Part shown: positions 10,815 through 26,693 of the stretch, piece by piece | Layout: each line of letters starts with the position of its first letter | Position numbering within the stretch: position 1 is the stretch's first letter | IMG/VR virus record: IMGVR_UViG_3300009008_000162 | Span: 1 to 31,411 of that record | DNA length: 31,411 nucleotides | From: a virus | Reading direction: 5' to 3' (one strand) | Translations under genes and position numbers: made by a program | The notes under the pieces: generated by a model | The model's input: the letters and a program-made list of their open reading frames with translations, nothing else | Databases searched by the model: none | Told to the model about the DNA's origin: nothing

Positions 10815-11778
10815 ATTCATAGTAAAAAAAAGAATTAAGCTAATTCAACAATCATTTGGTACCTCTCTAGTAGATAGAGATGGGATCAATATTTCTGTCA
10901 GTTGTGTGAATGAAAAGTGTAGTACTTTTGGAAAGCCGGCAAAGAAGAAATTGGTAATACGTGTTGACAATGAATTTTACCACTGTTGGGTTTGCGGGCT
11001 TAAGGGCAAAGGCCTTTCTCGTTTTTTTGCTAGATATAAACCGCGGTTTGGTGCCGCGGCAAAAGAGCTGTTTAAGCACCACATCCAGGAGGCCGAGGAA
11101 GAAGTAGTCCCACCAGTCTATCTGCCTGAGGGATTTACACTACTTGCTGCGCTTCCAAAGCGCGCCGATCCTGACTTAAAGGCATGTAGAAAATATCTCC
11201 TGGATAGAGGCCTCACCCTTCGTGATTTGTGGTACTTTAAGGTAGGTAGCGTCACCAAGGGCAAATACCGACGGAGGGTGATAATTCCTTCTTTTGATGC
11301 TGATGGTAAACTGAATTATTTCACTGCCAGAACGATTGATGGTGATACAACGCGCAAATATGTAAATGCAAGAGTAAAGAGGACTGAAATTATTTTTAAT
11401 GAAATTAACATTGATTGGTCTGAACCACTTACGATTGTAGAAGGACCCTTCGACTTGATAAAAGCAAACCAAAATTGCACTTGCTTGTTAGGGAGTAGTT
11501 TAGCTGACCGCCACGCTCTTTTCCAGCAGATTGTAAAAAACAAAACAGATGTTATTTTATGTCTGGATCCTGACGCAAATGTGAAATTACACAAAATTGC
11601 TGCTAATCTTTCTAAGTTTGGGGTGAATGTAAAGATGATAGAAATAGATGGGTTTGACGATGTTGGAGAAATGCCTCCGGGCCACTTCGAAACGTTGCTT
11701 AATACAGCGGTACAGTGGAATGAAATGCATCGACTGCGCTCTTTAATAAGCGGCATCAAGTCGGGATCGCTTATATGA
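10804..11778 (+). CDS. DNA primase, zinc-binding plus TOPRIM domains (DnaG/gp61-like)
   Basis: This is a 324-residue protein, near the 342 residues of T4 primase gp61. The N-terminal zinc-binding motif has C34-x4-C39 and C61-x2-C64 (YHCWVCGLKGKG). It is followed by a DnaG-core-like stretch (RRVIIPSFDADGKLNYFTAR, then KYVN) at about residues 156-188. The TOPRIM fold carries E213 in IVEGPFD and D255/D257 in CLDPD, the usual metal-binding set. Such enzymes make RNA primers for lagging-strand synthesis with a replicative helicase, which is not in this window. The gene overlaps ruvC by 11 bases and the Mre11-Rad50 fusion by 4 (ATGA), so these genes are likely co-translated. A TOPRIM nuclease is less likely given the CHC2-type finger. 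Confidence 0.82.
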   Translation: MDDEFIVKKRIKLIQQSFGTSLVDRDGINISVSCVNEKCSTFGKPAKKKLVIRVDNEFYHCWVCGLKGKGLSRFFARYKPRFGAAAKELFKHHIQEAEEEVVPPVYLPEGFTLLAALPKRADPDLKACRKYLLDRGLTLRDLWYFKVGSVTKGKYRRRVIIPSFDADGKLNYFTARTIDGDTTRKYVNARVKRTEIIFNEINIDWSEPLTIVEGPFDLIKANQNCTCLLGSSLADRHALFQQIVKNKTDVILCLDPDANVKLHKIAANLSKFGVNVKMIEIDGFDDVGEMPPGHFETLLNTAVQWNEMHRLRSLISGIKSGSLI

Positions 11779-14700
11779 GTTTTAGGTGCGCCCACTTTGC
11801 AGATATTCATTTTCGAGGGCTTACGAGGCACGAAGAATATCGAGACGTTTTTTCAAGGGCATTTAAGAAGCTTCAAGAGCTCTCTCCAGATGCCATTTTC
11901 CTGGGTGGAGACATTGTCCATTCAAAAACACAAGGAATAAGCCCTGAGCTTATTGAGATTCTTCGATGGTGGTTTACGTCCCTTGCAGAAATTGCTCCAG
12001 TCCATGTAATTTTAGGAAATCATGATGGATTGATGACTAATGAAGACCGGCTAGATGCTATCACACCCATTATTAACACGTTAAACAACCCACGAATTCA
12101 ATTAATGAAGGGTACGGGTGTATACCCAACCGGAATTCCGGGCTTTAACTGGTGTGTATTTTGTTGTTTCGATCAAGCTGGGTGGGAGAAGCTCTCTCCA
12201 CCAGCGGAGGGTGTGAGTATTGCTGCTTTTCACGGCGCGGTGAACGGTTCGTTAACAGATCAAGAGTGGGAAATCAACGGTGATAGCGTGAAGGTAGATT
12301 TTTTCGCTGATTTTGACTATACAATGCTCGGAGACATTCATAAAAGGCAATTTTTAACAGAACGGGTGGCGTATCCAGGATCGACGATTCAGCAGAACTA
12401 CGGAGAAGACGAAGAAAAGGGGTTTCTGCTTTGGGATATCAAAGACAAGGAAACTTTCAGCGTAGATTTTATTCCGCTAAAGAATAAACGTTCTTTTAGG
12501 ACGATTAAGTGGCTTGGAGACGTTACAAGTACGTTACAGCCGCTGCCACCAGAGTGGTCATCTTCAAGATTTCGTGTAGCCCACACTGGATTGTCACAAT
12601 TAGACTTTAATCAGCTTCAAAATGCGCTAAAAGAGCAATTTAACGCTTACGAAGTCGTCTCTAAGAATGAAGCGTCGAATTTTTCTGGTGCAGATACTGA
12701 AATTAGCACTTCTATTGGGAAAATTAGCCGAAATGACCTTCGAGTCTTCAGTCAACAAGACAAATTAATGTCAGATTTCGTTTCTGGGCTAAAAATAGAG
12801 GATTCCGCGCGAGAATCTCTAAGATTGCTCCACAAAGACGTTTTCAAACGTTGCGTGCAGCAAGTTTCTAACAAATCGCACCAATGGCGTCTAAGAAAGC
12901 TAAATTTCAATAATACTTTCGGCTATGGAGAGAATAATTCAATAGATTTTGATTTATTGCATGGGATAACCGGAATTTTTGGAAAAAATCGCTGTGGAAA
13001 GTCATCTATCCCCGGAACGTTGGTATACTCCTTGTTCAACGCCACTGATCGGGGCACGATTAAGAATATTCACGTTATGAATAGCCGAAAAACGTATTGC
13101 CAGGCTTCTACAGACTTTTCTGTGGGTGGGGAGATGTATAGGGCTGATAGACAGACAGTCAAAAAGGTAACCCGGAAGGGAAGCGTCTCCGCGCCGACAA
13201 ATCTGAACCTTTTCAAGATAGATGGTGATGGTCAGATTCTAAAAGATGACACAGGGGAGCAAAGAAGAGAAACAGAGAAGTCACTTCGTGATTTAGTGGG
13301 CACGGTGGAAGATTTCTTAATGACGTCCTTTGCATCTCAGGGCGATATGAATGCATTCATTAGAGAAGGATCAACAAAGAGAAAGTCAATTCTTACTAGA
13401 TTTCTTGATCTCCAGATTTTTGATGATATGCTTCGAGTCGCAAAGAATGAGATGGCTGAATTAAGAGGTGAAATGAAAACAGCTCCTGATCGAAATTGGG
13501 ATGTTTTAATTTCTGAACAAAACAGTCTTTTAGAGAACTTTTCATCTGAAAAATCAGAAATTGAAGATGAGCTTCAGGAAAAGAAAGAAAAGAGAGATAC
13601 CTTGAAAATCCAGCTTGCAGCGCTACCCACTGCGGGCTCTTATACAAAGAAGCAAATCACTGACCAAACCGTCAAACTGCACTCATTTGAAGCAAGAAAA
13701 GCTGACTTTAAGGACCAGATTTTGAAGCTTTCAATGGAGATGGATTCTGCGTCAAAGTTGTTAGAGAAGATCGAGATTATTCGGAACCAATTCCCTATTG
13801 ACGATTTACGTAATCAAGTTGATCTACAAAAAGACCTCAAGAACCAATATGAGCTATTGGACTCACGACTTCAATTAGAGCTGCAACGCTTGGATTCGAA
13901 AAAGAAATCAGCAAAGAAGCTGGATGCTGTCCCGTGTGGTGATGAATTTCCCAAATGTCCCTACATTCGTGCAGCACACAAAAGCGCCAAAGAGCTCGGG
14001 GGTCAAAAAGAAATAGTGTCGACAACGCGCAGGGAATTGCGCGCAATTAAGTCTAATTTAGACTCTTTGGTATCTGAGGGTCTAAATGAAAAGATGAAGA
14101 AGTATGAAGACATACTCCAGCAGGATCAAGAGCTTAAGCTTGGCTATTCTGATATGAAGCTTGGTATGCGAGAGCTTGAAGCGCAGCATCAGGAAGTAAA
14201 GACGTCGCTTAATTCGGGGAAAGAATTATTGAGAGAGATGCGCTTACGCTCTATCGATGAAGAGAAAGATTCTGAGGTTGCAAAAATGCAATTAGATCTT
14301 TCGAACATTGATAAGCGGATTGCAGAACTCGATGCTGGGCGCCTTTATCATGCAGAACAGATAAGCGTGTCGCGTCAGAAGGTAGAAGATCTTACTTCTG
14401 AAAATAAAAGATTTGGAGCAATAAAGCAGAGGTGGGAAACTTACAGTTTGTTTATTCAAGCAGTCGATAAAAAAGGGATACCGCTTACCATTTTATCATT
14501 ACAGTTACCGCAGATAAACGCTGAGCTTCGAAAAATCTTACAGGGCGTCGTAAATTTTGATATTATTTTAGAGCCAGAAATAGACTCGAATCAGATGGAG
14601 ATTTTTATCGACTATGGTGATTCAAGGAGAATTATAGAATGCGGTTCAGGCATGGAGAAAATGATTTCGTCATTAGCCCTGAGGGTTGCGCTAATAAATA

Positions 14701-14918
14701 TTTGTAATGCTCCCAGAAGCGATATTCTCATAATTGATGAAGGGTTTGGGGCTTTAGACGATAAAAACATAGAAGCGTGTAGCCGCTTATTGATAAGTCT
14801 TAAAAAATACTTTTCGAATATTCTTGTGATATCACATGTTGATGCAGTAAAAGATATCGTTGACAATGTTTTAGACATCCAGAAAAATGGGAAGGACGCC
14901 TGTGTTAAATTTTCATAG
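11775..14918 (+). CDS. Fused SbcD/Mre11 nuclease and SbcC/Rad50 ATPase (gp47-gp46 fusion)
   Basis: This is a single 1047-residue chain. The N-terminal half is a calcineurin-type nuclease with all motifs in order: D10-x-H12, G45-D46, G81-N82-H83-D84, H153 and G186-D187-x-H189. The C-terminal half is a Rad50/SbcC ATPase with Walker A G403-S411 (GKNRCGKSS), a Q-loop near SFASQGDMNAF, a coiled coil (about 560-900), a hook with C721-x6-C728, an ABC-type signature (GSGMEKM), Walker B ending D988-E989, and a SHVD switch. In T4 the nuclease (gp47, 339 residues) and ATPase (gp46, 560) are separate, and gene 47 precedes 46; the fusion keeps that order. The complex resects double-strand ends and is central to recombination-dependent replication. 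The hook spacing is wider than the usual CxxC. No frameshift is needed to read it through. Confidence 0.9.
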   Translation: MSFRCAHFADIHFRGLTRHEEYRDVFSRAFKKLQELSPDAIFLGGDIVHSKTQGISPELIEILRWWFTSLAEIAPVHVILGNHDGLMTNEDRLDAITPIINTLNNPRIQLMKGTGVYPTGIPGFNWCVFCCFDQAGWEKLSPPAEGVSIAAFHGAVNGSLTDQEWEINGDSVKVDFFADFDYTMLGDIHKRQFLTERVAYPGSTIQQNYGEDEEKGFLLWDIKDKETFSVDFIPLKNKRSFRTIKWLGDVTSTLQPLPPEWSSSRFRVAHTGLSQLDFNQLQNALKEQFNAYEVVSKNEASNFSGADTEISTSIGKISRNDLRVFSQQDKLMSDFVSGLKIEDSARESLRLLHKDVFKRCVQQVSNKSHQWRLRKLNFNNTFGYGENNSIDFDLLHGITGIFGKNRCGKSSIPGTLVYSLFNATDRGTIKNIHVMNSRKTYCQASTDFSVGGEMYRADRQTVKKVTRKGSVSAPTNLNLFKIDGDGQILKDDTGEQRRETEKSLRDLVGTVEDFLMTSFASQGDMNAFIREGSTKRKSILTRFLDLQIFDDMLRVAKNEMAELRGEMKTAPDRNWDVLISEQNSLLENFSSEKSEIEDELQEKKEKRDTLKIQLAALPTAGSYTKKQITDQTVKLHSFEARKADFKDQILKLSMEMDSASKLLEKIEIIRNQFPIDDLRNQVDLQKDLKNQYELLDSRLQLELQRLDSKKKSAKKLDAVPCGDEFPKCPYIRAAHKSAKELGGQKEIVSTTRRELRAIKSNLDSLVSEGLNEKMKKYEDILQQDQELKLGYSDMKLGMRELEAQHQEVKTSLNSGKELLREMRLRSIDEEKDSEVAKMQLDLSNIDKRIAELDAGRLYHAEQISVSRQKVEDLTSENKRFGAIKQRWETYSLFIQAVDKKGIPLTILSLQLPQINAELRKILQGVVNFDIILEPEIDSNQMEIFIDYGDSRRIIECGSGMEKMISSLALRVALINICNAPRSDILIIDEGFGALDDKNIEACSRLLISLKKYFSNILVISHVDAVKDIVDNVLDIQKNGKDACVKFS

Positions 14919-15534: not shown

Positions 15535-17130
15535 ATGCCGCCAACGAATAAGCAAAAACAAGTAAATGAAATTGTAAAGTGTGGAAAAGACCCTGCATAC
15601 TTTATTAATCGCTACGTACAGATCCAGCACCCGATCCGTGGCCGTATACCTTTTCACACCTATTCTTTTCAAGACGATTGCTTAAAGCATTTTAACGACC
15701 ATCGTTTTAATATTGTTGTAAAGTCAAGACAACTTGGATTGTCAACGCTGACCGCAGCCTATGCTGTTTGGTTGGCTCTTTTTCGAAAAGATAAGACTGT
15801 TTTGGTCATTGCGACCAAGCTTGCTGTCGCTCAAAACTTTATCAAGAAAGTAAAAATTGCCCTATCTGCTATTCCAAAGTGGATGTGGATTACTGAAATA
15901 ACTGCAAAAAATACACAGGCGATTGAGTTTTCTAATGGGTCGATGATAAAAGCTGTTCCCACTTCTGACGATGCAGGTCGATCAGAAGCGTTGAGCCTAT
16001 TGATCGTAGACGAAGCCGCATTTATTAGGAATTTTGATGAGTTGTGGAAAGGTCTTTATCCCACACTATCCACAGGTGGGCGCGCCATTGTAGTAAGTAC
16101 CCCGAATGGTACAGGTGGACAGTACTATGAACTTTATCATCGAGCGGTATCTGGAGAGAATGAATTCAATCATATTAAGCTGCCATGGGACGTGCACCCA
16201 GAGAGAGATGATAGGTGGTTTGATAACGAAGCAAAGAACTTGAACAAACAGCAGATCGCTCAAGAGTTGCTTTGCGATTTCCAAGCATCTGGAGACACTT
16301 TCTTAACTCAAGAAGATATTGAGAAGCTATATATGAGGGTCAGGGCGCCACTTGAGAAGTGGGGCCCAGAAAACGGGGTATGGGTCTGGAAGTACGCGAA
16401 TCCCGATCACTCGTATATAATTTCAGCAGATGTGGCAAGGGGTGACGGTGCTGATTATTCTACTTTTTGTGTTATAGACACGATTGAGTCAGAAGTTGTT
16501 TGTGAATTTAAGGGAAAAATTCCACCCGACCAATTATCTGAGCTTCTAATAGAGGCCGGACGACGTTACGGCGAGGCTACGCTATGTCCAGAGAGTAACA
16601 CCTATGGATACGCTGTTTTAATGAAGCTGCGAGAGTCTGGTTACAGGAACATTTACTTTCGGAAAGAGAAAGAAAAGTTCGACGCACTTTTCGGGAATGG
16701 CTCTATTGGGAAGGCAGGGTTTTCTACTCAGGGCGGTTCCCGCGCTCAAATCCTTACAAAGTTAGAAGAAGTGATTAGGAATGACAAGATAAAGTTGTAT
16801 TCATCACGTCTTGTTAGCGAAATGAAAACCTTCGTCTGGAACAGGGGGAAAGCACAAGCACAACGCGGTACCAACGATGATCTCGTGATGGCATTGGCAA
16901 TAGGTGTTTGGCTTTACGATGCAGACAAGACAGTGTCTCAAACAACAGTTGATATTAACGCAGCAATGCTTGCAGGGTTTGCTTTGAATAGCACAGACGA
17001 TCGAGATTCTAAAGATATGAGCGAATTCAACCGTAAAGCCAGCCTATTTACATCCAGAGGATGGCCCATGTTGATGGATCCAGATCATCCTGCTTTATCT
17101 GGGTCTGCAGATTTTAAGTGGTTACTATAG
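15535..17130 (+). CDS. 17: Terminase large subunit, DNA packaging ATPase/nuclease (gp17)
   Basis: This is a 531-residue protein (T4 gp17 has 610). The ATPase domain has a Walker A of the displaced-lysine kind, K63-SRQLGLST-71, in place of a standard GK[ST], and Walker B LLIV followed by D159-E160. A coupling-type motif VVSTPNGTGG follows. The C-terminal RNase H-like nuclease has D299 (IISADVARGDGADYS), E353 (LCPESNTYG) and D448/D449 (TNDDLVMALA), matching the D-E-D triad of T4 gp17. It docks on the portal, moves DNA into the prohead and cuts the concatemer. The ATG at 15535 has little ribosome binding site, so translation may depend on the preceding gene 7 bases away. The portal gene follows. 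Confidence 0.93.
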   Translation: MPPTNKQKQVNEIVKCGKDPAYFINRYVQIQHPIRGRIPFHTYSFQDDCLKHFNDHRFNIVVKSRQLGLSTLTAAYAVWLALFRKDKTVLVIATKLAVAQNFIKKVKIALSAIPKWMWITEITAKNTQAIEFSNGSMIKAVPTSDDAGRSEALSLLIVDEAAFIRNFDELWKGLYPTLSTGGRAIVVSTPNGTGGQYYELYHRAVSGENEFNHIKLPWDVHPERDDRWFDNEAKNLNKQQIAQELLCDFQASGDTFLTQEDIEKLYMRVRAPLEKWGPENGVWVWKYANPDHSYIISADVARGDGADYSTFCVIDTIESEVVCEFKGKIPPDQLSELLIEAGRRYGEATLCPESNTYGYAVLMKLRESGYRNIYFRKEKEKFDALFGNGSIGKAGFSTQGGSRAQILTKLEEVIRNDKIKLYSSRLVSEMKTFVWNRGKAQAQRGTNDDLVMALAIGVWLYDADKTVSQTTVDINAAMLAGFALNSTDDRDSKDMSEFNRKASLFTSRGWPMLMDPDHPALSGSADFKWLL

Positions 17131-17157: not shown

Positions 17158-19128
17158 ATGGCAGATAAAGGAAATATATTTCAGCGTTTAACGCAACTCT
17201 TCAGGTCTGGGCCCGTAGTAAAAAGAAGAGTAAGATCAAACGCACCCGGTATGTCTTCATCGGCAGCACAGCTTTTTAAGCGTGCCCATAACGACGTATA
17301 CAACACAACGTTAAGCGCGTACGGATCATTTGACCGTATGTCACGTTATTCAGATTTTAGTGAGATGGAGGCTACACCTGAGATCGCCTCAGCACTAGAC
17401 ATTTATTCGGAAGAAACAGTCAGCCCAGATGAGCATGGGAGAGTACTCCATATTTTCTGCGAAGATGAGATAAAAAAAGAGTTGTTAGAAACCCTTTTCT
17501 ACGATACGTTAAATCTTGAATTTAACTTGGTAATGTGGGTGAGGAATCTTTGCAAATATGGGGACTTCTTTTTGTTCAATGACATCGATCCGCAATTTGG
17601 CGTCGTGAATGCATACCCAATTCCTATTTCTGAAATGGAGAGAGAAGAGGGCTTTGATCCTGAGAATCCCGGTGCAGTTCGATTTAGGTGGCTCACTCAA
17701 GGAAATTCAGTTTTAGAAAATTGGCAGGTAGCGCATTTTCGGCTTTTAGGTAATGATGCATTTCTGCCGTACGGTTCTTCGGTTCTTGAATCTGCTAGAA
17801 GAATATGGCGCCAATTAATATTAATTGAAGATGCGATGCTCGTGTATCGTGTTATTAGAGCCCCCGAACGGCGCGTTTTCTATATTGACGTTGGTAATGT
17901 TCCACCTGAAGATGTCACGAATTATCTTGAGCAAGCAACATCAACACTTAAGCGATCTCAAGTTGTTGATAGAGACTCTGGCAAAGTGGACTTACGCTAC
18001 AACCCGCTATCAGTTGACGAAGATTATTTCATCCCAGTCCGCGGTGGGGATAGCGGTACCAAGATCGACACCCTGGCTGGAGGACAGAACACTGCTGCGA
18101 TTGAAGATGTTGAGTATATCCAGAAGAAGCTTTTTGCTGCGCTAAAGATTCCCCGAGCTTATTTGGGATATGACGAAGATATCGGTGCAAAAGCCACCTT
18201 GGCTCAAGAGGATATTCGCTTTAGCAGAACAATTCAGCGTATCCAAAAGACAGTAATCGCAGAGCTTAACAAGATTGCGATGATTCACTTGTTCGTGCAT
18301 GGTTATGACGGTGAAGATCTTATTGATTTTGACTTGAAGCTTTCGAACCCTTCTTCTGTTGCACAGATGCAAAAGCTGGAATTGATATCACAACGATTCG
18401 ATATCGCTGGGAAGGTTCCAGAAGGTATGCTAGATAGACGATGGGTACAGAAGAATGTACTCGGCTTGACTGACAAGATGATTGAAGAAATTCATGAAGG
18501 CAAGATGAAGGACAAAATCGAGGATGCTGAAGTCGAGGGAGCCGGCGCAGAAGAAGGCGGCGGTGAAGAAGGTGGTGGTGGCGACGAGGGCGGCGGCGGA
18601 TTATTCTCGGCTGACGTCCCGTCTGGTGAAAAGCTTTTAGTTGCGGTACCAGGAGATAAGGTAAAAGTTTCAGACCCCAGTTATGATAGAATGTCTGATG
18701 AAGAAGACGAAGATGAAGTAGACCTTGCCGCTCTTTCAATTGACGATCCCGACGCCCCCTTAAAAGCGCAGGCAGCAGTTAAGAAATATAAGAATAAATC
18801 TAGCTCTAGAGGACCCCTAACAACGCACATGCCAGACTTTAAATCAATGGTCACACATTCTAGGTCACAAGACTCTATGCGAAAGCCATTCGGTACCGAT
18901 CATTTACGGCGTGCTTTTGAGGGGACAGAATCCTTTGAAGAAGATACCTATAATAGAGGGGCTAGTCATGTCCGACCAGCCGTGACTCCAGAGCTAAGGG
19001 GGGCATTTGCATCCTTAGCCTCTATATTAAATCCTGAAGGCGGAGTGCTTCTATCAGAAGCATTAGAAAATGAGGGAGAACAAATCGAACTCGATGAATA
19101 CGATGCCGGAGAAATAGATGAAAGTTAA
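17158..19128 (+). CDS. 20: Portal protein (gp20) with Gly/Glu-rich linker and long C-terminal extension
   Basis: This is a 656-residue protein (T4 gp20 has 524). The N-terminal pattern (YSDFSEMEATPEIASALDIY, then EET) and the motif EYIQKKLFAALKIPRAYLGY near residues 320-340, followed by a long helix (LAQEDIRFSRTIQRIQKTV), are typical of T4-type portals. The dodecameric portal forms the DNA entry vertex, nucleates prohead assembly and binds gp17. Residues about 455-485 are an almost pure Gly/Glu repeat, followed by about 170 acidic then basic residues that T4 gp20 does not have. The tail could be disordered, cut by the prohead protease, or face the head interior. A GAGG-type ribosome binding site precedes the ATG. 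Overlap with the next gene is 11 bases. Confidence 0.92.
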   Translation: MADKGNIFQRLTQLFRSGPVVKRRVRSNAPGMSSSAAQLFKRAHNDVYNTTLSAYGSFDRMSRYSDFSEMEATPEIASALDIYSEETVSPDEHGRVLHIFCEDEIKKELLETLFYDTLNLEFNLVMWVRNLCKYGDFFLFNDIDPQFGVVNAYPIPISEMEREEGFDPENPGAVRFRWLTQGNSVLENWQVAHFRLLGNDAFLPYGSSVLESARRIWRQLILIEDAMLVYRVIRAPERRVFYIDVGNVPPEDVTNYLEQATSTLKRSQVVDRDSGKVDLRYNPLSVDEDYFIPVRGGDSGTKIDTLAGGQNTAAIEDVEYIQKKLFAALKIPRAYLGYDEDIGAKATLAQEDIRFSRTIQRIQKTVIAELNKIAMIHLFVHGYDGEDLIDFDLKLSNPSSVAQMQKLELISQRFDIAGKVPEGMLDRRWVQKNVLGLTDKMIEEIHEGKMKDKIEDAEVEGAGAEEGGGEEGGGGDEGGGGLFSADVPSGEKLLVAVPGDKVKVSDPSYDRMSDEEDEDEVDLAALSIDDPDAPLKAQAAVKKYKNKSSSRGPLTTHMPDFKSMVTHSRSQDSMRKPFGTDHLRRAFEGTESFEEDTYNRGASHVRPAVTPELRGAFASLASILNPEGGVLLSEALENEGEQIELDEYDAGEIDES

Positions 19129-19958: not shown

Positions 19959-20579
19959 ATGTCTGAATTAAAGCTTTTGACAGAATGGACACCTTTCGAA
20001 TACACGAAAGAGCTTGTTGAACAATCTAAGATTGAGAATGATGGACGCATTGTAATGAAGGGTGTGTTGCAGAAGGCAGACACCCTAAACCAGAACGGTC
20101 GTGTTTATCCTCGAGCTATTTTGGATCGAGAAGTTAGAAATTACCAAAAATTTATTGCTGAAAATAGAGCTCTGGGAGAGTGCGACCATCCTGATAGTTC
20201 AGTGGTCGAGCTTAAGAACGCTTCTCATATAGTTCGTGAAGCCTACATGGACGGTGACGTTTGTTACGGTACCGTTGAGCTTTTGGACACTCCATCTGGT
20301 AAAATACTTCAGAGCTTAGTTGAATCCGGTGTAACGCTTGGTATTTCATCAAGAGGAGTTGGTTCCACAAAGCGTAGCGGCGATTATGACGCAGTCCAAG
20401 ATGACTTCCAACTTATTTGTTGGGATTTTGTATCCGAACCCTCCACCCCTGGTGCATTTATGATGCGTGAAGGTCGTGTTGTGAGAGAAGACGAGTTGAA
20501 TAACTTTTTTAATAAATCAGATAGAATCCATAGATTGTTTAATGAGATCTTAGATTGGGAGGATTCAGATGAGCAGTAA
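19959..20579 (+). CDS. 21: Prohead maturation protease (gp21)
   Basis: This is a 206-residue serine protease of the T4 gp21 type (T4: 212 residues). The catalytic histidine lies in ECDHP (H77) and the serine in LGISSRG (S130/S131), the arrangement seen in prohead proteases with the herpesvirus-assemblin-like fold. The N-terminal segment with GRVYPRAIL is also typical of the family. The enzyme is built into the prohead, cuts scaffold, capsid and core proteins after (L/I)xE sites, and then destroys itself. It overlaps the next gene by 11 bases, within which lies that gene's ATG. Confidence 0.93.
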   Translation: MSELKLLTEWTPFEYTKELVEQSKIENDGRIVMKGVLQKADTLNQNGRVYPRAILDREVRNYQKFIAENRALGECDHPDSSVVELKNASHIVREAYMDGDVCYGTVELLDTPSGKILQSLVESGVTLGISSRGVGSTKRSGDYDAVQDDFQLICWDFVSEPSTPGAFMMREGRVVREDELNNFFNKSDRIHRLFNEILDWEDSDEQ

Positions 20580-21153
20580 ATATCCAGGCCCAGGCTTTAA
20601 CGCTGTGGGTGAATATCAGCGAAGCGGTATTCCCTTTGTAACATCTTCACATGGCGCAGAGGTGGTTGCCACAGCGGTGACGCAAATTAGGTTCCCTCGT
20701 GTGACACGGTGGTTTCAAATTGTAACAAGCGCATCATCTGATACCAACGCTCATCTTCGGATCGGATTCACTGCAAACGGTGTGAAGGGAATGGGCGTGA
20801 TAACAGGGTCTATTCAAACTGGTGATTTTTTCCAAGCTGGTAATAACACTAGTAAGCCCCAGCAGCCGGTGTATGTAGATGTTTCTCCAGCGCCGGGCGC
20901 TTGGCAAAAGTCTCAGTACCGGGGCGCGGAAGAAGTAACTTCACACGGCATGAAGAATTATTTTGTCATTCCTGCATCTTCAGCGACTGATAAAGTTGGG
21001 ACAAACACTCATAGGTTTGAGTTGGCTTGTACAGATCTCTTTCTTATGGCAGAGAATGGAAGTACTGGTTTCACTCTTATTGCTGGACTAACAAACATTC
21101 AGCGTAATCAACTTGACCTTACAGGTTCAGCGGGCTTCGACGGAGTAGGCTAA
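20569..21153 (+). CDS. Beta-rich putative head structural protein
   Basis: This is a 194-residue protein with a strong GGGAGGA ribosome binding site inside the end of gene 21. It is rich in Gly, Ser, Thr and aromatic residues and shows alternating strands (TRWFQIVTSAS, HLRIGFTANGV, TGFTLIAGLT), suggesting a compact beta-sandwich. There is no signal peptide or enzymatic motif. Being translationally linked to the protease and upstream of the scaffold, it is likely a capsid-associated or vertex/decoration component. I do not recognise a named family. Confidence 0.65.
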   Translation: MSSKYPGPGFNAVGEYQRSGIPFVTSSHGAEVVATAVTQIRFPRVTRWFQIVTSASSDTNAHLRIGFTANGVKGMGVITGSIQTGDFFQAGNNTSKPQQPVYVDVSPAPGAWQKSQYRGAEEVTSHGMKNYFVIPASSATDKVGTNTHRFELACTDLFLMAENGSTGFTLIAGLTNIQRNQLDLTGSAGFDGVG

Positions 21154-21593
21154 TGGCTAAAGTTTCTAAAGAGTTATTAAAAGAATTAGTCAAAGAGTGC
21201 TTATTCGAAATTTTGCTAGAATCGACCGGTGATGCCGGGATGAACTTAATGGAAAATAAGGTTCCGCCAAAAAGAAGACCAAAAAAGAACACAAACCGTA
21301 GTCTGCGTCCAGCGCTAGACAATATAGCATATGGTAGTGATAAACGAAAGAATACCACCCGGTCTTCCACCCCGCTTGACGTTTCATCTATAACGTCAGA
21401 CCCGGTGATGGCTGCGATATTTCAAGATACAGCTGCTACAACTCTAAAAGAGCAGGCTGCTGCTGAGAGAGGTCGGCCAGTCGGAAATGACGCTATTTCA
21501 CAAGCCGTGTCTGATAGCGATCCTACCCAGTTGTTTGGGGAGGCGGCGCAGAATTGGGCAACATTAGCCTTTAGCGAGAAAGCGAAAAGTTAG
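21153..21593 (+). CDS. Putative prohead core or internal head protein
   Basis: This is a 146-residue protein whose ATG overlaps the previous stop (TAATG). An amphipathic N-terminal helix (SKELLKELVKECLFEILLES) contains LLE-S, fitting the (L/I)xE cleavage rule of gp21 proteases. A basic stretch follows (KVPPKRRPKKNTNR), and the rest is polar and probably loosely folded. This layout, a short N-terminal targeting helix with a cleavage site then a basic body, resembles T4 internal and core proteins that are packed into the head and cleaved. The N-terminus is similar in style to that of the next gene. Role is inferred. Confidence 0.55.
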   Translation: MAKVSKELLKELVKECLFEILLESTGDAGMNLMENKVPPKRRPKKNTNRSLRPALDNIAYGSDKRKNTTRSSTPLDVSSITSDPVMAAIFQDTAATTLKEQAAAERGRPVGNDAISQAVSDSDPTQLFGEAAQNWATLAFSEKAKS

Positions 21594-21644: not shown

Positions 21645-21917
21645 ATGGCGAAGCATATCAAACTTACACCGGCCCTTTTACGAAAGCTGGTTTTAGAAGA
21701 AAAAAGAAAAATCACTGAAACACTCGAGCAAGAGGAAGAAGCTGTTGATAAGGTTAAAGCTGAAGAAGTACCTGCCGATGATCTTGCCGACTCGATTGAA
21801 AAAGATATAGACTGGATTAAAGCGCTAAAGATTCAAGAAAGCGTTTTGACTAGAAAAATGAAGAAAGTTAAAGAAGCCAAAAGGCGTCTTAAGACTCGAC
21901 TACACAAGAAGCTTTAA
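21645..21917 (+). CDS. Small charged helical protein, possible prohead core component
   Basis: This is a 90-residue protein with a strong GGAGGA ribosome binding site 7 bases before the ATG. It is nearly all helix: an N-terminal KLTPALLRKLVLEEKRK segment that parallels the start of the previous protein, a central acidic part, and a very basic C-terminus (KMKKVKEAKRRLKTRLHKKL). Small, highly charged helical proteins in this position (T4 gp67 and gp68) are prohead core proteins. LEE near residue 20 fits the cleavage rule (L/I)xE. Homology to those T4 proteins is not evident. Confidence 0.6.
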   Translation: MAKHIKLTPALLRKLVLEEKRKITETLEQEEEAVDKVKAEEVPADDLADSIEKDIDWIKALKIQESVLTRKMKKVKEAKRRLKTRLHKKL

Positions 21918-23014: not shown

Positions 23015-23084
23015 AGAAACTCACAAGAATTCTTTGGCGTTTAGTGCATATTTAAGTTGTGTGTGCTAAGAGGATTAACATAAT

Positions 23085-24638
23085 ATGTCAACAAATCTTT
23101 ACTTAGAAGCGATTGCGGAAGCTCAGCAATTAAAAAAATTAGCAGAGCAGAACGCGAAGAATAAAATTATTGAAGCTTTGACCCCGCGTATCCAAGCGAT
23201 GGTAGAAGCCCAGCTTCTTTCTGAACAAGACGATGAGATCGAAGTAATTGCTGTAGAGGAATTACCAGACGAGCTCGATGTAGAGGCCGCTCCTGATGAG
23301 TTAGTGGCTGAGCCAGTAGATGGCGTAGGTTCTGCATCTGTCGTTATTAATTCGCAAGGTGACGTTAACTTAACGGTCGCCGAGCAAAAATCTTCTCTGA
23401 GGAATCAGAGAGTAGGTAGCAACGGTGCTACTACTAATAAATCCAATCCATCCAGAGTTAATGGGCTAACAGAGCGAAACAGTAAGCTTCGACGGAAGGT
23501 GAGGAGAATGGATGTGTTGTTATCCGAGGTAAAATATAAAGATTTATCTCCAAAACAACGCGCTGTTATTAAGAGGTCATACCAAAAACTTTTAGACGAA
23601 GCAATAACTTTACGATCAGAGGCAATAGTTAGTTCTGGTAGCAAGGAAAAAGGTCTTCGTTTAGCAATATTCGAAACATTAAAGGAGATGAACCAAATGA
23701 CTAACCGACGCAGCCGAGCCATTTTCAACCGACTTTTTGAAGCTGGCTACGGTGAACTAGACGAAATGGAACTGGTTCTCAGTGATGAGGACCTTGAAGC
23801 TCTTGGCGTAGAAGACGCCGAGGAAGCCGATGTCGATGCTCTTGATTTAGAGCTTGTAAGCGACGTGGGCGCAGAGGAAGAAGAAGCCGAAGGCGAAGAG
23901 GAAGTTGAAGCCGGCGAAGGCGAAGAGGAAGAAGCAGCTGAAGAAGAAGTTGCACTCGACCTTGAAGAGATGCATGAGGTATTCGAAATCGATCCTCGTA
24001 TGCTTCGCCGCGAACTCAGCAAGCTCCGCAGAGTACGTGAAGCCACAGAGGGCAGCGCTCTCGCTTCTGACGAAGCCGACCAGTTTGGTGGCGGTGACAT
24101 TGAAGATGAGTCCTTTATCGATGTAGATGAAGACGACCTTCTTAATGCGCTCGCTGATGAGCTTGGCGATCCTTCGGTCCCCACACCTACAGTAGAATCT
24201 CGTAGACGACGTGCAAGACGCCGTGCTAGAATGTCTGAAACCAGACGTCGTGGCACCCGGTCTCGTACAGCTCGGTCTACAACTAGAAAGGCCGGCCGCG
24301 GTACTGTTGCAGAGAATGCACAGCTTAAGCGCCAGCTTTCTGAAATGAATCTTTTTAACGCAAAACTGCTTTATGTGAACAAACTGATGCAAAATCGTAA
24401 TGTAAGTTCTAAGCAACAGCGTGCCATAGTCGAGGCCCTTGATAATGCCAAGACAATTCGTGAGGCGAAGCTCGTTTACGAGTCATTGTCTCGTTCGTTG
24501 AAGAAGTCTTCCCTTACGGAAGGCAAAGCAAGAAGAGTTCTGGGATCGTCCAGCAAGCCTACTCGCAGCTCCGGCAGCAAAATAACTGAGTCGGCACAGA
24601 CAGATCGTTGGGCAGCTCTTGCTGGTATCAAAAAGTAG
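23085..24638 (+). CDS. 22: Prohead scaffold/core protein, long form (gp22-like)
   Basis: This is a 517-residue protein with AGAGGA before the ATG. It has a helical N-terminus (YLEAIAEAQQLKKLAEQN), a basic helical segment (about 125-200), a long acidic region (about 210-350, with near-pure Glu/Ala/Gly at 259-290), an Arg-rich patch (about 375-405), and a C-terminal coiled segment (NAQLKRQLSEMNLFNAKLLY). Composition and position directly before the capsid gene fit the T4 scaffold gp22 (269 residues), which is degraded by gp21. Several (L/I)xE sites are visible (IAE-A, IIE-A, LAE-Q, LSE-Q). The protein is almost twice the T4 size, and codon use changes sharply at residue 205, where a second start is likely. 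The segments around residues 130-170 and 420-460 look alike, suggesting an internal duplication. Confidence 0.82.
   Translation: MSTNLYLEAIAEAQQLKKLAEQNAKNKIIEALTPRIQAMVEAQLLSEQDDEIEVIAVEELPDELDVEAAPDELVAEPVDGVGSASVVINSQGDVNLTVAEQKSSLRNQRVGSNGATTNKSNPSRVNGLTERNSKLRRKVRRMDVLLSEVKYKDLSPKQRAVIKRSYQKLLDEAITLRSEAIVSSGSKEKGLRLAIFETLKEMNQMTNRRSRAIFNRLFEAGYGELDEMELVLSDEDLEALGVEDAEEADVDALDLELVSDVGAEEEEAEGEEEVEAGEGEEEEAAEEEVALDLEEMHEVFEIDPRMLRRELSKLRRVREATEGSALASDEADQFGGGDIEDESFIDVDEDDLLNALADELGDPSVPTPTVESRRRRARRRARMSETRRRGTRSRTARSTTRKAGRGTVAENAQLKRQLSEMNLFNAKLLYVNKLMQNRNVSSKQQRAIVEALDNAKTIREAKLVYESLSRSLKKSSLTEGKARRVLGSSSKPTRSSGSKITESAQTDRWAALAGIKK
23681..23687 (+). promoter_or_regulatory. Internal ribosome binding site in the scaffold gene
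   Basis: AAAGGAG lies 9 bases before the in-frame ATG at 23697. It is as good as the sites in front of the major capsid gene, and codon use changes right after it, so it probably drives a second product. The same seven bases encode part of the LKEM stretch of the long form. Confidence 0.5.
23697..24638 (+). CDS. Probable short form of the scaffold from an internal start
   Basis: An in-frame ATG at codon 205 of the scaffold gene is preceded by AAAGGAG at 9 bases and would give a 313-residue product, much closer to T4 gp22 (269 residues). By eye, the 204 codons before it use TTA for leucine about eleven times; the 313 codons after it use TTA about once and prefer CTT, CTC and other C-ending codons like the highly expressed capsid gene. 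This suggests that the downstream part is made in greater amount than the upstream part. The arrangement would parallel lambda Nu3, a scaffold made from an internal start within a larger gene. The product is predicted, not demonstrated. Confidence 0.5.
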   Translation: MTNRRSRAIFNRLFEAGYGELDEMELVLSDEDLEALGVEDAEEADVDALDLELVSDVGAEEEEAEGEEEVEAGEGEEEEAAEEEVALDLEEMHEVFEIDPRMLRRELSKLRRVREATEGSALASDEADQFGGGDIEDESFIDVDEDDLLNALADELGDPSVPTPTVESRRRRARRRARMSETRRRGTRSRTARSTTRKAGRGTVAENAQLKRQLSEMNLFNAKLLYVNKLMQNRNVSSKQQRAIVEALDNAKTIREAKLVYESLSRSLKKSSLTEGKARRVLGSSSKPTRSSGSKITESAQTDRWAALAGIKK

Positions 24639-24679: not shown

Positions 24680-26641
24680 ATGTCTAAAAAGTTCACACTT
24701 GAACAGCTGACCGAAGGTATTCGGCAGCGTCACTTGGGCGAAAACAACGCTCGATTGACAGAAAAGTGGAGTAGAACTGGTCTCCTCCGAGGTCTCGAAG
24801 GCGTCCATCGTGAAAACATGGCGCAGTTACTTGAGAATCAGGCAGGACAGGTTCTAAGAGAGCAAAACACCCTTGGTGGTGGCGGTCTCTCTCCCTCCGC
24901 AAGCTCCGGTGATATCCGGGGTTTTACCAACGTTGCTTTCCCCATCGTTCGTCGAGTATTCGGCGGCCTTGTGGCAAACGAGTTGGTTTCAATCCAACCA
25001 ATGAGCTTACCTTCTGGTCTGCTCTTCTATCTTGACTACACCTACGGTACTAACGTTGGTGGTGATGAAGATGGTATTGGTACAGCCAGTCAGAATACAT
25101 ATGATGCTGGTCAGTCCATCTATAATAACCCCGCAGGTAAGGGCATACGCTCCGGTTCTCTTGGAACTGGTGGTCAGTATGATCTTGTCGGTTCAGGTTA
25201 TTCTAGAGTTCACACAGGTTCCCAGCTCGCTGGCGGTTCTGAAACAACAGGCGCTAAGTTAGCAGCGACTTCCTGGTTCACACTTGGAAGCAATGCAACT
25301 CAGAGTCGTGTAGCAGCCCGTTCGCTGACTGCAAACCGTAAGATGAAGAGCTCCGGTGCTGATGGTCGATTCCTTCAGTTTGACCCCCAGGTCACTCAGT
25401 TAATCGATGATGAGAACGGTAAGTGGTTCTTCCTCGCAGTTGACCTTGGTAACCCTGCGTTGACAAATATTGATCTTACTCAGCTGAAGGACATCGCGCT
25501 CTTCCTGACGAGTTCAAACCCCGGCTCTGCCGCTGGTGATGTCGCCGATCTTGGCGAAACATTCCAGGGTGGTCAGGGTGTTGTTAACCTTCGACGTCTG
25601 AACATGCTAGTTACCTCCGCTTCTGCGGCTGGTTCACTGACACCTGCTCCGATGGCTACTAAGTCAACATCTGGCGCAGCGCTTCTTATGGTTCTTTCCG
25701 GTTCCGGTATTGGTACGGCTTTCTCGTCCTCTATCGTTGCTAACTTCTTGATCAGTGGTCCTAAGGCCGCATCGCTTGCATCGACTGTTAACGAAGCTGA
25801 CACTCTCGTAGTGCCCGTCTTCGAGTCGAACTTTGCAATCGACGCACCAGCCCCCCAGATTCCTGAGATTGATATCAAGATCGAGGCTATCTCGGTTGTC
25901 GCAAGCACTCGCAAGTTGCGTGCTCGTTGGTCACCGGAACTCGCTCAGGATTTGAATGCCTATCACAGCTTGGATGCTGAGGTTGAGCTTACTCAGATTC
26001 TGTCTGAGCAGATTGCTCTTGAGATTGATCGTGAGATCCTGAATGACCTGCTCATGCAGGCGAAGACTGTTCGTTACTGGTCTAGAATGCCAGGTCAGTT
26101 TGTTAACAAGAAGAGTGGTGCTGTCCAGTCTAAGGCTAGCTCGCTTAATCCCGGACCGGCTTTCACCGGTACGGTTCGTGAGTGGTATGAAACCCTCGTT
26201 GAGACAATCATCGATTGTGCTAATGAGATTCATCGCTTAACTCTTCGCGGTTCCGCCAACTTCATCGTGGTATCCCCCGATGTGGCCACCATCCTTGAGG
26301 CTTCTGTCCTCTATCGTCCTTCTTACAGCATTGATGGAGACGGACAGGTTGGTGCACCAATGGGACTCGGATGTGAAAAGGTCGGTACGCTGAGTAACCG
26401 TTTCACAGTCTATAAGGACCCCTACTTCCCACGCAACAAGATCCTTGTTGGGTACAAGGGCGGTAGCTACCTTGAGACTGGATACGTATACGCTCCCTAC
26501 GTACCGCTGATCGTCACTCCTACTATCTTCGCTCCCGAAGACTTCACACCTCGCAAGGGCGTGATGACTCGGTACGGTAAGAAGATGGTACGTTCCGATT
26601 TCTACGGTGTCGTTAACTGCATGAGCATGGACGTTATCTAA
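24680..26641 (+). CDS. 23: Major capsid protein (gp23)
   Basis: This is a 653-residue protein (T4 gp23 has 521) of the HK97 fold class. Matching features are the RRVFGGLVANELVSIQPM segment near residue 90, the ARWSPELAQDLNAYHSLDAE and EIDREIL motifs near 420-455, and a C-terminus with YAPYVPLIVTPTIFAPEDF then RYG. The N-terminal 65 residues are a charged helical pro-region with candidate gp21 cuts after E52 (LLE) or E61 (LRE); T4 gp23 is cut after E65. The extra length seems to be Gly/Ser/Thr-rich loops, notably about 115-190 and 280-380. Codon use is strongly biased to C-ending, frequent codons, as expected for the most abundant virion protein. AAGGAG precedes the ATG, and a strong terminator follows the stop. 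Confidence 0.95.
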   Translation: MSKKFTLEQLTEGIRQRHLGENNARLTEKWSRTGLLRGLEGVHRENMAQLLENQAGQVLREQNTLGGGGLSPSASSGDIRGFTNVAFPIVRRVFGGLVANELVSIQPMSLPSGLLFYLDYTYGTNVGGDEDGIGTASQNTYDAGQSIYNNPAGKGIRSGSLGTGGQYDLVGSGYSRVHTGSQLAGGSETTGAKLAATSWFTLGSNATQSRVAARSLTANRKMKSSGADGRFLQFDPQVTQLIDDENGKWFFLAVDLGNPALTNIDLTQLKDIALFLTSSNPGSAAGDVADLGETFQGGQGVVNLRRLNMLVTSASAAGSLTPAPMATKSTSGAALLMVLSGSGIGTAFSSSIVANFLISGPKAASLASTVNEADTLVVPVFESNFAIDAPAPQIPEIDIKIEAISVVASTRKLRARWSPELAQDLNAYHSLDAEVELTQILSEQIALEIDREILNDLLMQAKTVRYWSRMPGQFVNKKSGAVQSKASSLNPGPAFTGTVREWYETLVETIIDCANEIHRLTLRGSANFIVVSPDVATILEASVLYRPSYSIDGDGQVGAPMGLGCEKVGTLSNRFTVYKDPYFPRNKILVGYKGGSYLETGYVYAPYVPLIVTPTIFAPEDFTPRKGVMTRYGKKMVRSDFYGVVNCMSMDVI

Positions 26642-26663: not shown

Positions 26664-26693
26664 AAGGGGTGCCCAATCGGGCACCCCTTTTTT
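26664..26693 (+). terminator. Strong Rho-independent terminator after the major capsid gene
   Basis: GGGGTGCCC (26666-26674) pairs perfectly with GGGCACCCC (26679-26687) around a 4-base loop, extended by AA/TT pairs, and is followed by TTTTTT (26688-26693) and more T-rich sequence. It lies 22 bases after the capsid stop codon and should end the head operon transcript. Confidence 0.93.

Follow-up and report, generated by a model that had tools for sequence, protein, structure and literature searches.

The window analysed here is the whole of IMG/VR virus record IMGVR_UViG_3300009008_000162, a stretch of 31,411 bases that carries a T4-type head block. This block comprises a large terminase (15535-17130), a portal protein of the T4 gp20 type (17158..19128, + strand), a separate prohead protease of the Peptidase_S77 family and T4 gp21 type (19959..20579, + strand), five small open reading frames (ORFs), a 517-codon ORF (23085..24638, + strand) and the gene for a gp23-type major capsid protein (24680..26641, + strand), which is followed on its 3′ side by a terminator-like hairpin at 26664-26689. 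The 517-codon ORF thus sits between the protease gene, from which the five small ORFs separate it, and the capsid gene, which it immediately precedes. Its full-length product of 517 aa (57.5 kDa, pI 4.9) is a candidate capsid scaffold, a role suggested by its position, its acidic and helical make-up, its neighbours and its protease motifs. Two of the small ORFs between protease and candidate scaffold, at 21153-21593 and 21645-21917, encode proteins with similar beginnings (MAKxxKxxxxLLxxLVxE); neither has a Pfam match, and they could be small core proteins standing where T4 has gp67/gp68. The capsid protein itself is 653 aa long and has database matches in two pieces with an unmatched stretch in the middle, which suggests an inserted domain. 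Elsewhere in the window, at 11775-14918, a single 1047-aa protein fuses an SbcD-type nuclease (Metallophos, aa 4-189) to an SbcC/Rad50-type ATPase (AAA_23, from aa 375); in T4, the corresponding gp47 and gp46 functions are encoded by separate genes.

Inside the 517-codon ORF, a Shine-Dalgarno heptamer AAAGGAG (23681..23687, + strand) stands 9 nt 5′ of an in-frame ATG at 23697, the spacer being ATGAACCAA, just as a preliminary description of this DNA had read it. Initiation at this ATG would yield a short form of 313 aa (23697..24638, + strand; 35.0 kDa, pI 4.8), nested in the long one and ending at the same stop codon. The duplex energy of the internal Shine-Dalgarno is −8.7 kcal/mol, compared with −9.1 for that of the capsid gene, and it is stronger than the primary Shine-Dalgarno of the ORF, AGAGGA (23069..23074, + strand), which lies 10 nt 5′ of the ATG at 23085 and reaches −5.8. 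Beyond the window, a Shine-Dalgarno match of at least 5 bases precedes 36 of 741 other in-frame internal ATGs (4.9%), whereas the site at this conserved column is near-universal in relatives and is not a product of chance. A T4-type late promoter (TATAAATA) is absent 5′ of the internal start in the window, and one of 56 relatives has one.

Codon use changes at nearly the same point. The preliminary description, counting by eye, had put the leucine codon TTA at about eleven before the site and about one after it; the exact figures are 12 of the 23 leucine codons up to the site (204 codons) and 1 of the 32 beyond it (313 codons; Fisher P = 3e-5). When codon scores are trained on the capsid gene versus the 24 other genes of the window, the N-terminal part scores as ordinary genes do (−0.26 per codon), and the C-terminal part, at +0.04, lies above all 24 of these genes and below the capsid gene (+0.22), in keeping with the capsid-like codon use that had been ascribed to the short form. 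A changepoint analysis likewise recovers the break that had been proposed: the best single changepoint falls after codon 199, with 0 of 5000 permutations as high, on a near-equal plateau of codons 178-206 that includes 204, the internal Met being residue 205. Among 56 relatives, capsid-trained codon adaptation is higher in the C part than in the N part in 51 (Wilcoxon P = 4e-10; P values are nominal, related sequences being counted as independent), and the profile averaged over all 56 steps up at the internal site.

IMG/VR holds more than 300 relatives of the candidate scaffold gene, collected by similarity to the window protein, and the internal Shine-Dalgarno with its Met is almost universal among the 97 unique full-length sequences. 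Metagenome-assembled genomes labelled Methylococcaceae and Halobacteriovorax contain two of the relatives, perhaps by accident of binning; the phage collection yielded no cultured member with the full gene. In a representative set of 60 relatives under 70% identical, the Met occupies the same column in 53. Both the start and its ribosome-binding site are conserved at the nucleotide level. The codons at −5/−4 read NNG-GAG in all 51 Met-bearing representatives that have x-Glu there, against 4.4% of control pairs elsewhere in the same genes, and where the two residues are Lys-Glu they are encoded AAG-GAG in 41 of 41 (control 13%). This two-codon pair ends 9 nt 5′ of the internal ATG and is kept even when the amino acid differs, GGAG persisting where Gln, Glu, Met or Leu takes the place of Lys. 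The short form starts with the pattern MxxRxxxxIFxxLFE (23697..23762, + strand), and in 46 of 53 relatives the internal Met is followed by Ser, Ala or Thr, as expected of a genuine N-terminus. Relatives gathered later by other routes (L249, L250, L259-L262, L264, L273, L275, L277) also have the internal site. Among the seven remaining representatives, the site is shifted by −1 or +3 codons in two; in four, an ATG led by a Shine-Dalgarno lies some 24-31 codons further downstream, where coincidence is harder to discount, although several diverged members have it at a recurring position. Clades without the canonical site have thus apparently re-created a start nearby; in one small clade (L125/L253, L254, L255), an internal site is not recognisable. 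A quick tree of capsid proteins has the site in all parts of the environmental clade and in none of its four outgroup rows; a single gain is likely on this tree, which has long branches.

The internal start also appears to be the stronger of the two. Its Shine-Dalgarno exceeds the gene's own in 52 of 55 relatives, with median energies of −8.7 and −5.6, respectively; the corresponding medians are −8.0 for the capsid gene and −2.6 for other internal ATGs. The mRNA is least structured at the site, where the 40-nt folding energy averaged over 56 relatives is minimal at −2.5 kcal/mol, versus about −5 to −8 around it. Kept in relatives, led by a strong Shine-Dalgarno and set in a dip of mRNA structure, the conserved internal start that the preliminary description had proposed now has strong comparative support. 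The results on codon use and folding speak for differences in expression, as indirect indicators rather than measurements. The earlier proposal of a rarer long and an abundant short form fits insofar as the long part has ordinary codon use and a weaker start, and Shine-Dalgarno strength and codon use together suggest that the short form is the more abundant; the protein ratio itself we infer, as we do the place of the long form.

Two predicted helical elements would be exclusive to the long form. The first is a long N-terminal helix (aa 1-52; 23085..23240, + strand), which is among the conserved parts of the protein, with Glu21 and Pro34 invariant, and is kept also in phages without the internal start. 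The second is a basic three-helix bundle (aa 122-203; 23448..23693, + strand), the end of which coincides with the internal start. Further on lie an acidic, mostly disordered linker (aa 231-380; 23775..24224, + strand), with 55 Asp and Glu to 14 Lys and Arg, and then two elements present in both forms: the most conserved part of the protein, a C-terminal helical domain (aa 408-475; 24306..24509, + strand; QLxEMNLFNAKLLYVNKL...IVEALDxAKTLREAKL), and a conserved tail, DRWAxLAGIxK (aa 503-517; 24591..24635, + strand). The full-length predicted model is mostly of low confidence (pTM 0.30), and a fold search with the N half returned only generic three-helix bundles, none with an E-value below 0.001. 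Similar-looking helices in the two halves had prompted the idea of a tandem duplication of one scaffold module, which is unsupported, as hhalign assigns homology between the N and C halves a probability of 6-16%. A similar LAGI tail closes the pre-capsid gene of immuto, Mel-JY01, XacN1 and RM378, whose scaffold-position proteins otherwise show little similarity; this tail may be a shared capsid-binding element.

Taken together, these comparisons of sequence favour, with a probability of about 0.8, a single gene that gives rise by internal initiation to two co-terminal scaffolds, a scarce long one of 57.5 kDa and an abundant short one of 35 kDa. Weak ribosome loading at 23085 would produce the long form, made up of N-terminal helix, three-helix bundle, acidic linker and C-terminal domain; loading at 23697, as strong as that at the capsid gene, would produce the short form, reduced to the linker and the C-terminal domain. 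Toward the capsid shell, both would present the conserved C-terminal domain and tail that they have in common. The prohead core would consist mainly of the abundant short form, and the scarce long form would bring its N-terminal module to a restricted set of places, most probably those at which assembly starts, at the portal, the protease or other core proteins. By analogy with lambda and T4, the long form could be hypothesized to act as a nucleating or connecting species: in T4, the portal nucleates the core (PMC9958956), and in lambda, an initiator is formed by C, Nu3 and the portal (PMC3224144). A more specific picture is tentative, and we give it clearly less than even odds: throughout a group of T4-like phages, most of them uncultured, the head core would be built from two scaffold isoforms with a common C-terminus, their ratio fixed at translation, and the scarce long one would nucleate the core or set its size and tie it to the portal vertex. 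If this picture were true, internal initiation would be a means of stoichiometry control in capsid assembly.

The chief competing explanation accepts that the internal site is used and takes the short form as the sole working scaffold, the long form being a by-product or a minor assembly control and the upstream 204 codons in effect the product of another gene, fused. The ordinary, low-expression codon use of the long part and its weak primary start would suit this account, which we nevertheless consider rather improbable. The conserved N-terminal helix argues against it, all the more because immuto and Mel-JY01, two isolates that lack the internal start, join this helix and the C domain in one protein. 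In addition, the N and C domains lie on one open frame in all 117 complete unique copies, without a single stop at the joint, although such a stop would be easily gained if the fusion were unimportant. Versions split at the site, which the preliminary description had raised as a telling case, are likewise absent among the relatives; in L052 a frame shift disrupts the N half, and the other partial cases are contig ends. Selection on the long form as well as the short, as indicated by its conservation, is therefore well supported.

Considerably less probable still is that the conserved motif is a gp21-type protease cleavage site ([L/I]-x-Glu) and that the short form arises from processing rather than initiation. 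A majority of the conserved sites do also fit the cleavage motif of T4-type proteases, [L/I/V]-x-Glu, with L/I-K-E in many relatives; enrichment of [L/I]xE motifs is confined to the N part (9 vs 3.7 expected), and in T4 the protease gp21 degrades gp22 (PMC9958956). Conservation of the amino acids at the site could indeed be due in part to cleavage. However, selection at the protein level would permit AAA and GAA where NNG-GAG is fixed, and it is initiation, not cleavage, that explains a Met 4 residues on with Ser, Thr or Ala next to it, the dip in mRNA structure and the step in codon use. The alternative that the preliminary description had itself offered, a recent fusion of two genes with the internal site as the relic start of the second, draws on the sharp codon break and the fossil-like start at the joint, but is rejected as very unlikely: fusion, site and break are common to relatives down to about 40% identity or less, the uninterrupted ORF recurs in the 117 complete relatives and, with both domains, in immuto and Mel-JY01, and a relic would have lost its silent-site conservation. 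An ancient fusion with its start retained is compatible with two forms made by internal initiation. Equally unlikely is that the internal Shine-Dalgarno pauses ribosomes for folding or complex assembly without starting them, as might be supposed from the proposal that internal Shine-Dalgarno-like sequences slow elongation, since pausing needs no ATG at 6-9 nt, no Ser, Thr or Ala second residue and no codon-use step, and since in divergent clades the ATG moves together with the Shine-Dalgarno.

The genetic device as such is already known. In phage lambda, the scaffold Nu3 is nested in frame within the protease gene C. The window gene resembles this pair in its in-frame internal start, common C-terminus and location in a head-assembly block, lambda's short product being the scaffold (PMC3224144). 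It differs in that the long product of lambda is a protease with a scaffold tail, whereas the long form of the window has no protease match and no recognisable enzyme domain; no homology is claimed. Since the gp21-type protease of the window is encoded by its own Peptidase_S77 gene, the protease-linked N-terminus envisaged in the preliminary description is rejected, and both products look like scaffolds. In T4, an internal translation start is annotated in gene 21 (NP_813810.1), also in frame and within the head-core block of a T4-type phage; in that phage the gene concerned is the protease and the shift is 22 codons. Phage endolysins made as two polypeptides from single genes (PMC9430671) share the in-frame internal start and common stop, but are lysis enzymes and play no part in head assembly. 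What would be new in the present case is a long form without a protease and a pair of products that both resemble scaffolds; we found no report of such an arrangement in T4-type scaffolds in the open-access literature. A large, mostly uncultured T4-like group thus appears to make two scaffold versions from one gene via a guarded internal ribosome-binding site, judging from conservation across its members. Every relative of the window gene would be annotated as encoding a single long protein, when the main product is likely the short form from codon ~205. The case offers an example of a nested start under silent-site selection across very divergent phages, and the long/short pair could serve as a genetic handle on the nucleation and sizing of the T4-type core, which are still open, the structure of this core being unresolved (PMC9958956).

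The protein of T4 that corresponds most closely in place is gp22, the major prohead core protein (T4_CASP, PF25623). It too is a helical, acidic protein encoded between protease and capsid genes; the window protein is about twice as long and has two predicted forms. Homology between them was not found: the window protein has no Pfam match to PF25623, whereas T4 and S-BM3 gp22 match, and profile-profile comparison with hhalign gives a probability of 1.6-1.8%. The label of scaffold accordingly rests on position and make-up. A scan of T4 gp22 revealed no Shine-Dalgarno-led internal start, and no clear counterpart of the window's internal start is present in cyanophage or T4 gp22. Flavobacterium phage immuto and Microcystis phage Mel-JY01 each encode a scaffold-position protein (QQO92121.1 and WWT39314.1, respectively); these two proteins have the N-terminal helix, the C-terminal domain, the LAGI tail and the gene position in common with the window protein, but are shorter (413 and 366 aa, respectively) and have neither the three-helix bundle nor a matching conserved internal start. 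The immuto protein (L161, 3083-4324) contains two near-identical internal repeats (FEQWLDSVSAQMDKFGKNNPTIQAIEKAV) and is annotated as 'DNA polymerase phi-like', which is probably a misannotation. In cyanophage S-PM2, the open frame of g22 (L243, 544-1407) extends well upstream of the annotated start, in a frame other than that of the annotated 'ORF4'. S-BM3 gp22 aligns across this annotated start, which may thus have been misplaced.
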